From positions 1 through 60,770 of the forward strand of contig NZ_JAUZEE010000017.1 of the NCBI RefSeq assembly GCF_030705305.1: a stretch of 60,770 bases of DNA. The letters run 5' to 3'. Both the position numbers and the translations under genes were made by a program. The first letter of the stretch is position 1, and each line of letters starts with the position of its first letter. Origin of the DNA: Leptothrix discophora. Lineage in GTDB: Bacteria > Pseudomonadota > Gammaproteobacteria > Burkholderiales > Burkholderiaceae_C. Below are positions 5,162 to 11,428 of this stretch, piece after piece. A model generated the notes under the pieces. The model was given only the letters and a program-made list of their open reading frames with translations, was not told the DNA's origin and did no database searches.

Positions 5162-6280
5162 TCAGCCGCGCTGCGCCTTCACCGCGTCGGCCAGCGTCGC
5201 CAGCACGGCGGCAGAGTCGTCCCAGCCGATGCAGGCGTCGGTGATGCTCTGGCCGTAGGCGAGCGCGGCCGGGTTGTCCTGGCCCGGATTGAACTTCTGC
5301 GCACCGCCGACGAGGTGGCTCTCGACCATCACGCCGAAGATCGAGCGGCTGCCACCGGCCATCTGCGCGGCGATGTCGCGGGCCACGTCGATCTGGCGCT
5401 GGTGCTGCTTGCTGCTGTTGGCATGGCTGCAGTCGACCATCAGGCGCTGTTCGAGCTTGGATGCCGCCAGGTCGGCGCAGGCGGTGGCCACGCTGGCCGC
5501 GTCGTAGTTCGGCGCCTTGCCACCGCGCAGGATGACGTGGCAGTCGGCGTTGCCGCGGGTCTCGACGATCGAGACCTGGCCGTTCTTGTGCACCGACAAG
5601 AAATGGTGCGGACGGGCCGCCGCCTGGATCGCATCGGTGGCGATCTTGATGTTGCCGTCGGTGCCGTTCTTGAAGCCGATCGGCGCCGACAGGCCCGAGG
5701 CCAGCTCGCGGTGGACCTGGCTCTCGGTCGTGCGCGCGCCGATCGCGCCCCAGCTGATCAGGTCGCCGATGTACTGCGGGCTGATGGTGTCGAGGAACTC
5801 GCTGCCGGCCGGCATGCCCATCCGGTTGATGTCCACCAGCAGCTGGCGCGCGATGCGCAGGCCCTCGTCGATGCGGAAGCTGCCATCCAGGTAAGGGTCG
5901 TTGATCAGGCCCTTCCAGCCGACCGTCGTGCGCGGCTTCTCGAAGTACACGCGCATGACGATCTCGAGCGTGTCGGCATATTGCTCGCGCAGCGGCAGCA
6001 GGCGACGGGCGTATTCCAGCGCGGCGGCCGGGTCATGGATCGAGCAGGGGCCGATGACCACGAGCAGGCGGTCGTCGCGGCCATGCAGGATGTCGCGGAT
6101 CTTCTGGCGCGTGCCCGAGATCAGCGATTCCACGGCCGTGCCGCGGATCGGGAAGAAGCGGATCAGGTGCTCGGGCGGCGGCAGCGGGGTCACGTCAACA
6201 ATCCTTTCGTCATCGGTCTGCGAGGTCTTGTCGATCGGGGCCTGCCAGCGGTTGGCGGCTGGTTCGTGCGGAGCGGTCAT
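5162..6280 (-). CDS. aroG: 3-deoxy-7-phosphoheptulonate (DAHP) synthase, type I
   Basis: This 372-residue enzyme condenses phosphoenolpyruvate and erythrose 4-phosphate in the first step of the shikimate pathway. The signatures VIGPCSIHD, KPRTTVGWKGLINDP, GARTTESQVHRELASGLS and MVDCSHANS are those of the AroFGH family. The ATG at 6280 is used because a longer frame would start inside the attenuator region. Upstream lie a terminator hairpin and an aromatic-rich leader peptide, so expression is probably tuned by transcription attenuation. The enzyme also feeds chorismate to the chorismatase of the pigment cluster 38 kb away, which is a metabolic link by inference. Confidence 0.95.
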   Translation of the reverse strand: MTAPHEPAANRWQAPIDKTSQTDDERIVDVTPLPPPEHLIRFFPIRGTAVESLISGTRQKIRDILHGRDDRLLVVIGPCSIHDPAAALEYARRLLPLREQYADTLEIVMRVYFEKPRTTVGWKGLINDPYLDGSFRIDEGLRIARQLLVDINRMGMPAGSEFLDTISPQYIGDLISWGAIGARTTESQVHRELASGLSAPIGFKNGTDGNIKIATDAIQAAARPHHFLSVHKNGQVSIVETRGNADCHVILRGGKAPNYDAASVATACADLAASKLEQRLMVDCSHANSSKQHQRQIDVARDIAAQMAGGSRSIFGVMVESHLVGGAQKFNPGQDNPAALAYGQSITDACIGWDDSAAVLATLADAVKAQRG

Positions 6281-6328: not shown

Positions 6329-6357
6329 AAAAAAAAACCGCCGGGGCATCCGGCGGT
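6329..6357 (-). terminator. Attenuator terminator in the aroG leader
   Basis: On the minus strand an 8-bp perfect stem (ACCGCCGG / CCGGCGGT, loop of 5) is followed directly by 8 or 9 T. It sits between the leader peptide stop (6392) and the aroG start (6280), with no other gene in between, so it must act inside the aroG transcript. Confidence 0.85.
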
Positions 6358-6411
6358 CTTTGATCGGTCTGTCGCTGCGGTTTGCGTGCGTTCAGGCCTC
6401 TCCTCCGCCGG
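6350..6411 (-). promoter_or_regulatory. Predicted antiterminator pairing of the aroG attenuator
   Basis: The RNA segment CCGGCGG, encoded by the Thr-Gly-Gly codons of the leader peptide (6405-6411), is identical to the 3' arm of the terminator. It can therefore pair with the terminator 5' arm CCGCCGG (6350-6356) over 7 GC pairs. The two pairings exclude each other, as in classical pheA and trp attenuators. A ribosome stalled on the aromatic codons at 6422-6451 leaves this segment free; one that reaches the stop at 6392 covers it. Confidence 0.75.
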
Positions 6412-6460
6412 TGCGGTGCGAGAACCAAAAGTACGCAAAGAAGAACGGGTACCGAGACAT
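6392..6460 (-). CDS. Aromatic-rich leader peptide of aroG (22 aa)
   Basis: The peptide reads MSRYPFFFAYFWFS and then HRTGGGEA. Of residues 4 to 13, eight are aromatic: Phe five times, Tyr twice, Trp once. This is the composition expected of a ribosome-stalling sensor for charged tRNA-Phe, -Tyr and -Trp, like PheL in enteric bacteria. It ends 35 bases before the terminator stem. No strong Shine-Dalgarno sequence precedes the ATG. A TAAAGT sequence 7 bases upstream could be a -10 element of a leaderless message, but that is speculative. Confidence 0.8.
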   Translation of the reverse strand: MSRYPFFFAYFWFSHRTGGGEA

Positions 6461-6610
6461 GCGAAAGACTTTAGCACGCAGATCCTGACGACCTGCCTAC
6501 GTGATCACCCGAAGGTGGCGTGAAAGCCGCAAGGCGGCGGAACCCCGACATGCCCGCGAAGGCCGATGAACACGGGCGTAACGGGCCCTGCCTGGCTTGC
6601 CGGGCGGGAC

Positions 6611-8074
6611 TCAGCCCGTGCCGCCGACGGTGATGCCGTCGATGCGCAGCGTCGGCTGGCCGACGCCCACCGGCACGCTCTGGCCTTCCTTGCCGCAGGT
6701 GCCCACGCCGGGGTCGAGGGCGAGGTCGTTGCCGATCATCGAGACGCGGTTCATCGCGTCCGGACCATTGCCGATCAGCGTCGCGCCCTTGACCGGGTAG
6801 AGCAGCTTGCCCTTCTCGACCCACCAGGCCTCGCTGGCCGAGAACACGAACTTGCCGCTGGTGATGTCGACCTGGCCACCGCCGAAGTTGCTGGCGTAGA
6901 GGCCGCGGTCGATGCTGGCGATGATCTCCTCGGGCGTCTTGTCGCCCGGCAGCATGTAGGTATTGGTCATGCGCGGCATCGGCACGTGGGCATAGCTCTC
7001 GCGCCGGCCGTTGCCGGTCGGGGCGACCTTCATCAGGCGCGCGTTGGTGGCGTCCTGGATGTAGCCCTTGAGGATGCCGTCCTCGATCAGCACGTTGCGC
7101 TGCGAGGCATGGCCCTCGTCGTCGATGTTGAGCGAGCCGCGACGGTCGGCGAGCGTGCCGTCGTCGAGCACGGTCACGCCCTTGGCGGCGACACGCTGGC
7201 CGATGCGGCCCGAGAACGTGCTCGAACCCTTGCGGTTGAAGTCGCCTTCCAGCCCGTGGCCGACCGCCTCGTGCAGCAGGATGCCGGGCCAGCCCGAACC
7301 GAGCACGACCGTCATCTCGCCGGCCGGCGCGGCCTGGCTGTCGAGGTTGGTCAGCGCGGCGTGAACGGCCTGGTCGACGTAGCGCGAGATCACATCGTCC
7401 TGGAAGTGGCCCATGCCGTAGCGCCCGCCGCCGCCGGCCGAGCCGATCTCGCGGCGGCCGTTCTGCTCGGCGATCACGGTGACCGACAGGCGCACCAGCG
7501 GGCGCACGTCGGCAGCCAGCGTGCCGTCGGCACGGGCGACCAGCACGACGTCGTACTCGCCGGCCAGTCCGGCCATGACCTGCACCACGCGCGGGTCCTT
7601 CGCGCGGGCCAGGCGTTCGACCCGTTCGAGCAGCGCGACCTTCGCGGCGCTGTCAAGCGTGGCGATCGGGTCCATGCCCGGATAGAGGCTGCGGCTGGCC
7701 GCGACCTGCTGCGGCGTGTCGACCTTGATGCGCCGGCTCTGGCCGGCCGCCGCGATGCTGCGCACCGTGCGCGCCGCGTCGAGCAGGGCGGCCTCGGAGA
7801 TGTCGTCCGAATACGCGAAGGCGGTCTTCTCGCCGGCCACCGCGCGCACGCCCACGCCCTGGTCGATGCTGAAGCTGCCGCTCTTGACGATGCCTTCCTC
7901 AAGGCTCCAGCCCTCGCTGCGGGTGTACTGGAAGTAGAGGTCGGCATCGTCGACCTTGTGCGCCGCGATCGTGTTGAGCGCCTGCCGCAGGCTCGCGTCG
8001 CTCAGGCCATAGGGCTCGAGCAGCAGTTGACGGGCGATGACGAGGCGTTCGAGGGTGGGTTCGCGGGAGATCAT
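6611..8074 (-). CDS. tldD: TldD metalloprotease subunit (487 aa)
   Basis: TldD forms a heterodimer with TldE (PmbA) that degrades unfolded or modified peptides and matures some antibiotics. The zinc site HEAVGHGLEGDF (HExxxH) is present in the middle of the protein, and the C-terminal phrase TLRIDGITVGGTG is typical. The length matches the family. The partner gene pmbA is not in this window, which is usual because the two are often unlinked. The gene ends 150 bases before the aroG leader peptide on the same strand. Confidence 0.93.
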   Translation of the reverse strand: MISREPTLERLVIARQLLLEPYGLSDASLRQALNTIAAHKVDDADLYFQYTRSEGWSLEEGIVKSGSFSIDQGVGVRAVAGEKTAFAYSDDISEAALLDAARTVRSIAAAGQSRRIKVDTPQQVAASRSLYPGMDPIATLDSAAKVALLERVERLARAKDPRVVQVMAGLAGEYDVVLVARADGTLAADVRPLVRLSVTVIAEQNGRREIGSAGGGGRYGMGHFQDDVISRYVDQAVHAALTNLDSQAAPAGEMTVVLGSGWPGILLHEAVGHGLEGDFNRKGSSTFSGRIGQRVAAKGVTVLDDGTLADRRGSLNIDDEGHASQRNVLIEDGILKGYIQDATNARLMKVAPTGNGRRESYAHVPMPRMTNTYMLPGDKTPEEIIASIDRGLYASNFGGGQVDITSGKFVFSASEAWWVEKGKLLYPVKGATLIGNGPDAMNRVSMIGNDLALDPGVGTCGKEGQSVPVGVGQPTLRIDGITVGGTG

Positions 8075-11352: not shown

Positions 11353-11428
11353 TGGTGCCGGCTGTCCGAATCGAACGGACGACCTTCCGCTTACAAGGCG
11401 GGTGCTCTACCAGCTGAGCTAAGCCGGC
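11353..11428 (-). tRNA. tRNA-Thr (anticodon TGT)
   Basis: The minus strand folds as a 76-base tRNA. The acceptor stem is GCCGGCT/AGCCGGC with discriminator A and an encoded CCA; the D arm is GCTC/GAGC, the anticodon loop CTTGTAA, and the T arm GTCCG/CGGAC around TTCGATT. The anticodon UGU reads ACA and ACG. The outermost anticodon stem pair is a C-A mismatch, while the other four pairs are normal. Confidence 0.95.

Follow-up and report, generated by a model that had tools for sequence, protein, structure and literature searches.

Organization of the aroG locus

The window analysed here is the whole stretch of DNA presented above, 60,770 nucleotides of the Leptothrix discophora genome. On its minus strand, a gene for DAHP synthase is preceded by a short open reading frame (ORF) and a hairpin, and tldD lies directly upstream of these. 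In the direction of transcription, the features are as follows:

6614-8074, minus strand: tldD, directly upstream of the leader on the same strand (NCBIfam TldD, 670 bits)
6468..6476, minus strand: predicted extended -10 element TGC-TAAAGT, 7 nt before the leader ATG, recognized from the placement of -10 boxes in relatives
6460..6392 (stop included), minus strand: leader peptide ORF of 22 codons, MSRYPFFFAYFWFSHRTGGGEA, from the ORF list
6422..6451, minus strand: putative regulatory codons 4-13 (Tyr, Phe, Phe, Phe, Tyr, Phe, Trp, Phe and two others)
6411-6405, minus strand: segment 2, predicted 5' arm of the antiterminator, CCGGCGG, within the leader ORF
6356-6350, minus strand: segment 3, CCGCCGG, common to the predicted antiterminator and terminator
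6344-6338, minus strand: segment 4, 3' arm of the predicted terminator, CCGGCGG
6337-6329, minus strand: T run of the predicted terminator, 9 T
6280..5165 (..5162 with the stop codon), minus strand: aroG-type DAHP synthase gene, 372 aa, the putative regulated gene (TIGR00034, PF00793)

The aroG product is a type I DAHP synthase (543.8 bits to TIGR00034 and 320.6 bits to PF00793). Its open frame reaches up to an ATG at 6349, within the hairpin; we set the start at 6280 because homologues align from residue 1 there, and the spacing between the T run and aroG is then 48 nt. Eight of the 22 leader codons are aromatic (codons 4, 6, 7, 8, 10, 11, 12 and 13), namely five Phe, two Tyr and one Trp. The hairpin is composed of CCGCCGG, the loop ATGCC and CCGGCGG, followed by nine T. 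Segment 2 is the same heptamer as the 3' arm of the terminator and can pair with the 5' arm; 10 nt lie between the last of the aromatic codons and this segment, which starts at the 11th base. All of this agrees with the preliminary description, which had reported a 22-codon peptide with eight aromatic residues among codons 4-13, a terminator with a U tract before DAHP synthase, a leader CCGGCGG identical to the 3' arm and allowing two exclusive structures, and stall codons at least 11 bases from the antiterminator arm.

As in known attenuators, an ORF rich in codons for the end products of the pathway stands upstream of a biosynthetic gene, and a terminator, recognized in silico by its hairpin, folds and conserved helix, lies between the two. 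Across the 60,770 bases, the terminator pattern has a single occurrence, and none of 100 shuffled sequences contains it; a combined leader detector (described below), used at a score of at least 30, found no other site among 804 stretches of the window. A simple consensus scanner reported neither a terminator nor a sigma-70 promoter at this element; we nevertheless accept the hairpin and T run because they were read directly from the sequence and folded.

Recurrence of the leader in related genomes

For the comparison with relatives, we used a panel of 82 regions upstream of aroG homologues, comprising the best 80 related loci of an AroG scan (more than 80 exist), the window, and the second DAHP synthase gene of the same genome. 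The detector looks for a short ORF with at least four F, Y or W within 11 residues that is followed by a GC hairpin and a T run, and a score of at least 38 was counted as positive. By this test a leader is present in 64 of the 82 regions, that is, in the window and in 63 of the best 80 loci, while it was found in none of 1640 dinucleotide shuffles and in none of 1084 further stretches of 510 nt from these loci. These counts come from related sequences, and the events are not independent. The leaders occur in Roseateles, Acidovorax, Variovorax, Polaromonas, Hydrogenophaga, Burkholderia, Paraburkholderia and Caballeronia, among others, and also in Cupriavidus (L067), Massilia, Rugamonas, Janthinobacterium, Oxalobacter and Xanthomonas. 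The preliminary description had proposed an alignment of aroG upstream regions across Burkholderiales as a check, and had taken a lack of conservation in relatives as one outcome that would speak against the element; the alignment shows that the leader and both stems are conserved, with some compensatory changes, and the leader recurs in 64 of the 82 regions.

The detector found no leader in 17 of the best 80 loci: two of Cupriavidus (L023, L032), three of Polynucleobacter (L033-L035), and L038 (which has only 22 nt upstream), L046, L049, L050, L068, L073-L076 and L078-L080. Likewise, no leader was found in the 450 nt upstream of the second DAHP synthase gene (L002, G000:C3:14861-15946, 61% identity).

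A covariance model (R1) was then built from 63 leaders, omitting L061 as a near copy of L060, and was run on 300 genomes of the order of the window, whether or not they contain aroG. For full-length matches we used a cut-off of E<=5e-6, which was set after inspection of the listing. At E<=0.01, at least 173 of the 300 genomes have some match, although many of the weaker ones listed are pieces covering the terminator only. Among the matches listed, those in 81 of the 300 genomes are full length, and in 77 of these 81, the window and 76 of the other 80, the next gene downstream on the same strand encodes an AroG homologue. In the 76 genomes, the gap between the element and the AroG homologue is 2-146 nt, with a median of 51. 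The other four matches belong to one genus (see the last section). When the model was run at the level of the class (274 genomes), two genomes outside the order had a full-length match at E<=1e-5; both matches precede AroG, and both leaders resemble the Xanthomonas leader L077. Weaker full-length matches in G279, G297 and G172 were rejected, since on reading they are not aromatic leaders before aroG, and the partial matches L115-L118 turned out to be terminators only.

Competing helices

In the window, the predicted terminator has a folding energy of -17.0 kcal/mol (z = -3.64), and one of 200 shuffled sequences is as stable; the corresponding values for the predicted antiterminator are -26.1 kcal/mol and z = -4.12, and no shuffled sequence (0/200) is as stable. 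When the whole element is folded without ribosomes, the terminator is preferred. For the folding and geometry calculations we used 61 loci, because anchor words were absent from three of the 64 leaders. Of 61 transcripts cut before segment 4, 60 have the antiterminator as their minimum-energy fold, with a mean of -23.2 kcal/mol, and the mean for the terminator alone is -18.2 kcal/mol. The pairing between segment 2 and the 5' arm is better than in shuffled sequences (p<0.05) in 47 of the 64 leaders and no better at this level in the other 17.

The alignment of 63 rows shows no variation in CCGCC of segment 3 or in GGCGG of segment 4, and hardly any in GGCGG of segment 2. The terminator helix is paired in 97.4% of 567 cells, 26 of which are changed on both sides, against a mean of 7.5 in shuffled alignments. 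Its covariation score is 0.137 (0.063 shuffled), a value reached by none of 500 shuffles, uncorrected for relatedness. The number of further pair types, five, shows no excess (5.2 in shuffles, reached by 471 of 500). The antiterminator helix is paired in 85.5% of 504 cells, 19 cells carry changes on both sides (7.8 on average in shuffles), and its score of 0.111 (0.060 shuffled) is again reached by 0/500 shuffles, with relatedness uncorrected. Here, two pairs have a double change, which is no excess over the shuffled mean of 1.8 (reached by 347 of 500), and the six further pair types are reached by 78 of 500 shuffles.

The covariation between segments 2 and 3 rests on few columns, one of which is mismatched in 10 of the 63 rows. 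In the informative column, segments 2, 3 and 4 read C/G/C in 32 rows, T/A/T in 15 and A/T/A in two; in the other 14 rows, the terminator pair is kept and the antiterminator has a wobble (4 rows) or a mismatch (10 rows). Furthermore, the pair on the 3' side of GGCGG of segment 2 (columns 63/128) is missing in 45 of the 63 rows. By this alignment, the two alternative helices are each conserved and show some compensatory changes. The in silico analysis yields an antiterminator that uses the 5' arm of the terminator, is mutually exclusive with it, and should be free to form under a stalled ribosome.

Just 3' of segment 2, the hexamer GAGAGG (window positions 6402-6397, minus strand) is kept in most leaders of the group closest to the window and in most of the Burkholderia type. 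We considered it, together with a pyrimidine stretch upstream, as an extension of the antiterminator, and obtained a mean energy of -6.4 kcal/mol, compared with -5.3 for shuffled sequences and -5.4 for the partner taken from other loci. Because p<0.05 was reached in only 7 of 61 loci, we do not claim this extension; ribosome pausing and a longer antiterminator are conceivable roles of the hexamer.

Predicted promoter placement

The 64 leaders were sorted into a group closest to the window (38), a Burkholderia type (12), an Oxalobacteraceae type (9) and others (5). This sorting is our own and was made after the upstream DNA had been seen; L042, for example, has a peptide like that of the closest group, but was placed among the others since it has no -10 box near the ATG. 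In all 38 leaders of the closest group, a -10 box ends 6-8 nt before the leader ATG, in contrast to none of the 26 remaining leaders under the same test, and in 37 of the 38 a TG stands one base upstream of the box. Among shuffled upstream sequences, 2.8% contain such a box and 0.26% contain the TG as well. The box is most often TACATT in the closest group and is TAAAGT in the window.

In a second set of 32 loci taken from whole genomes (which includes the window, and in which L112 repeats L031), TG and a -10 box at 7-8 nt are found in all 10 loci with an AroG identity of at least 74%, eight of which are new. Of the remaining 22 loci, seven have a box matching at 4 of 6 positions 4-10 nt before the ATG, and four of these seven also have the TG. 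No Shine-Dalgarno-like 4-mer was found before any of the 59 leaders of the three groups (the five others were outside this test). As for the Burkholderia type, a -10-like hexamer stands 35-37 nt upstream in 6 of 12 leaders, a count made without a shuffle control.

Given this short distance between the -10 box and the ATG, leader mRNAs in the group of the window are probably leaderless, with transcription predicted to start at or beside the leader ATG. Neither the extended -10 box nor a leaderless start was part of the preliminary description. A similar case is trpL of Sinorhizobium meliloti, whose RNA is reported to start at the ATG of the leader ORF (PMC7298713), as predicted here; that leader is Trp-specific and alphaproteobacterial and controls trpE(G). 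A leaderless start is likewise described for Streptomyces leaders (PMC8079986).

Amino acids represented in the leaders

Phe and Tyr codons are present in all 64 leaders and Trp codons in 51; in two of these 51 (L057 and L064), by our reading of the peptides, Trp comes after the main aromatic run. In total, the leaders contain 278 Phe, 121 Tyr and 54 Trp codons, and both synonymous codons are in use (TTT 182, TTC 96, TAC 68, TAT 53). In the closest group, F, Y and W interchange at codons 7, 8 and 10, where non-aromatic residues occur too, while Phe11 is constant (38/38). The variability of codons 8-13 at positions 1, 2 and 3 is 0.21, 0.29 and 0.34, respectively, a weak third-position excess.

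The codons fit the sensing of Phe and Tyr, and in some lineages of Trp, with the reservation that the presence of a codon is no proof of its use. The earlier proposal that all three pools are sensed at once stands in part. Phe and Tyr codons are universal among the 64 leaders, but Trp codons are confined to 51, so that three-pool sensing is plausible in the window and not general; moreover, in the Phe-Tyr-Phe leader aroR of Corynebacterium glutamicum, the supply of Tyr is reported in a review to have no effect (PMC11802643).

Proposed mechanism

We interpret the element as a ribosome-mediated transcription attenuator of aroG, a reading to which we assign a probability of about 0.9. Because the arrangement recurs in so many relatives, the enzyme is most likely switched on when aromatic amino acids are scarce. 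In the window, the promoter with its -10 box 7 nt before the leader ATG would start the mRNA at or next to the A of the ATG, and ribosomes would translate the leader without a Shine-Dalgarno site. If charged Phe-, Tyr- or Trp-tRNA is scarce, the ribosome would stall within codons 4-13 and leave segment 2 bare; segment 2 could then pair with segment 3 as the antiterminator, segment 4 would stay single-stranded, and aroG would be transcribed. If the aromatic tRNAs are charged, the ribosome would reach the stop codon and mask segment 2, segments 3 and 4 would form the terminator, and transcription would presumably stop in the T run before aroG.

The geometry was examined under the assumption that the leading edge of the ribosome lies at P-site + 14, using customary limits of the ribosome footprint. 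When the A site holds the last aromatic codon, GGCGG of segment 2 lies beyond the leading edge in 57 of 61 leaders. When it holds the stop codon, GGCGG falls fully within the footprint in 26 of 61, including the window, and, according to the distance table, it is at least partly covered in about 50 of 61. From the counts of 57 and 26, the stalling half of the mechanism is geometrically general, whereas the masking half is clear in the window and looser elsewhere.

The attenuator of the E. coli trp operon has a further segment 1, which we do not treat as obligatory for the class. In the window, a segment 1 able to sequester segment 2 was not found (p = 0.42). A search over the 64 leaders gave p<0.05 in 15 cases, comprising 10 of the 12 Burkholderia-type leaders versus 5 of the 52 others; the candidate in most Burkholderia-type leaders is TCCGCC in codons 2-3, which is complementary to segment 2. 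In E. coli trp, I:II pairing is reported to cause super-attenuation when translation does not occur (PMC1183508). No comparable segment was found in the window, and its untranslated RNA should consequently favour antitermination, unlike that of E. coli trp.

A more specific reading, which we offer tentatively and at somewhat less than even odds, is that a single peptide from a leaderless mRNA acts as an OR gate for a shortage of Phe, Tyr and (where present) Trp, that it governs entry into the aromatic pathway across much of Burkholderiales and also in Xanthomonas, and that opposite fail states exist within the one family. If so, loss of translation would turn aroG on in the leaderless forms lacking segment 1, while Burkholderia-type leaders, with a short 5' UTR and segment 1, would super-attenuate instead.

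Alternative explanations

A narrower version of the attenuator is that it responds essentially to Phe, as pheL does, with the Tyr and Trp codons as passengers. The predominance of Phe codons (278 versus 121 Tyr and 54 Trp) and the constancy of Phe11 in the closest group fit this version, as does the reported indifference of C. glutamicum aroR to the Tyr supply (PMC11802643); Phe_leader (RF01859) is also the top-scoring Rfam match across the whole element, although below the threshold. Since, on the other hand, Tyr is present in 64/64 leaders, and F, Y and W replace one another at several codons as if any aromatic residue served, we regard a Phe-only attenuator as quite possible, with odds of roughly one in three. 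It is unlikely, in comparison, that the terminated leader RNA or its peptide also acts in trans beside attenuation in cis. The prediction of a leaderless small mRNA and the precedent of rnTrpL/peTrpL in S. meliloti (PMC7298713) would suit such a role; the N-terminal residues and the position of the stop vary, however, and the C-terminal residues overlap the pairing arm.

Two further explanations would replace the attenuator altogether. The hairpin might be only the terminator of tldD and the small ORF accidental, given that tldD is directly upstream of the window leader on the same strand and upstream of aroG in 50 of the best 80 related loci. However, tldD is upstream of the leader in 45 of 63 related loci, and in the other 18 none was detected in the fetched flank; conversely, five tldD-aroG pairs have no leader, and on these grounds a plain tldD terminator was rejected. 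Aromatic residues also remain numerous in the small ORF, which overlaps an arm co-varying with the hairpin, and the -10 box stands between tldD and the leader, so that we consider this explanation very improbable. A metabolite-binding riboswitch or a T-box in place of ribosome control, finally, could account for a terminator and an alternative fold before a biosynthetic gene. It has hardly any probability, because the conserved part consists of an ORF and two short competing helices, and it was dismissed when none of the six Rfam matches with E up to 10 belonged to such a family.

Relation to known systems

The mechanism of the attenuator preferred here is the classical one of the E. coli pheL/trpL kind; what is new is its widespread occurrence before aroG in these bacteria. 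For DAHP synthase genes, too, aromatic leaders have a precedent in aroR of C. glutamicum, which precedes aroF; the original study is reportedly that of Neshat et al. in 2014. Like the present element, aroR is an aromatic leader peptide (Phe-Tyr-Phe) before a DAHP synthase gene, but it belongs to a different phylum and has three named aromatic residues as against eight here, and the likeness that we claim is functional only. Ribosome-mediated attenuation by aroR, with increased expression under Phe limitation, is described in PMC11802643 and PMC4046766. In E. coli, the leader peptide pheL controls pheA through the charging of Phe-tRNA, and repression of the DAHP synthase genes is ascribed to regulators with aromatic amino acids as ligands (PMC11802643). 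The present element shares with pheL the proposed control of an aromatic biosynthesis gene by a leader peptide and a weak full-length similarity to the Rfam model, and it differs in preceding a DAHP synthase gene. The trpL leader of trpEDCBA follows the same logic of stalling, antitermination and termination, for Trp only.

With Phe_leader (RF01859), the element scores 18.6 bits, far under the gathering score of 55, and we rejected membership in that family. In Rfam release 15, the only match at threshold in the window is a tRNA at 11356-11428, and none covers the element; similarly, 20 chosen loci, of which 19 carry a leader before aroG and the other is L120, gave no match at threshold, which bears out the earlier remark that no named RNA family was known for it. 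A search of the literature, with supplements and closed papers beyond its reach, turned up no account of a leader before aroG in Burkholderiales or in Xanthomonas.

On the reading as an attenuator, a conserved RNA switch that is absent from Rfam at threshold would govern the committed step of aromatic amino-acid synthesis in many bacteria of one large order. The system would make it possible to test directly whether leaders of mixed codons integrate the pools of several amino acids, and its variants (leaderless forms that lack segment 1, forms with a 5' UTR and segment 1, and forms with Trp or without it) would make a natural series for studies of attenuator evolution. In strain engineering, the sequence should limit the expression of aroG in rich medium.

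Exceptional loci

The leader does not simply track the overall similarity of AroG. Two Cupriavidus proteins close to that of the window (L023, 78%; L032, 76%) have no leader, while the more distant L067 (66%) has one, and genome G158 holds both kinds, a 66% copy with a full-length leader and a 78% copy without such a match. In L033-L035, L074 and L075, tldD is upstream of aroG on the same strand and there is no leader, which suggests that the attenuator has been lost in Polynucleobacter-like genomes, where aroG is perhaps co-transcribed with tldD.

The four full-length R1 matches that do not precede an AroG homologue come from one genus (G253, G117, G192 and G283). The three that were read have an aromatic leader, for example MITFSAVFNAYFYWYRSSRRLQGASLD, with a GCCGCCG/CGGCGGC terminator, and are followed by an unannotated ORF. 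They are located as follows:

L119:511-661, plus strand: aromatic leader
L120:2429-2574, minus strand: aromatic leader
L124:2725-2875, minus strand: aromatic leader

The ORF following these leaders, of about 205 aa, gave no Pfam match in its L119 form and no significant NCBIfam match, and is possibly an unrecognized gene under the control of aromatic amino acids.
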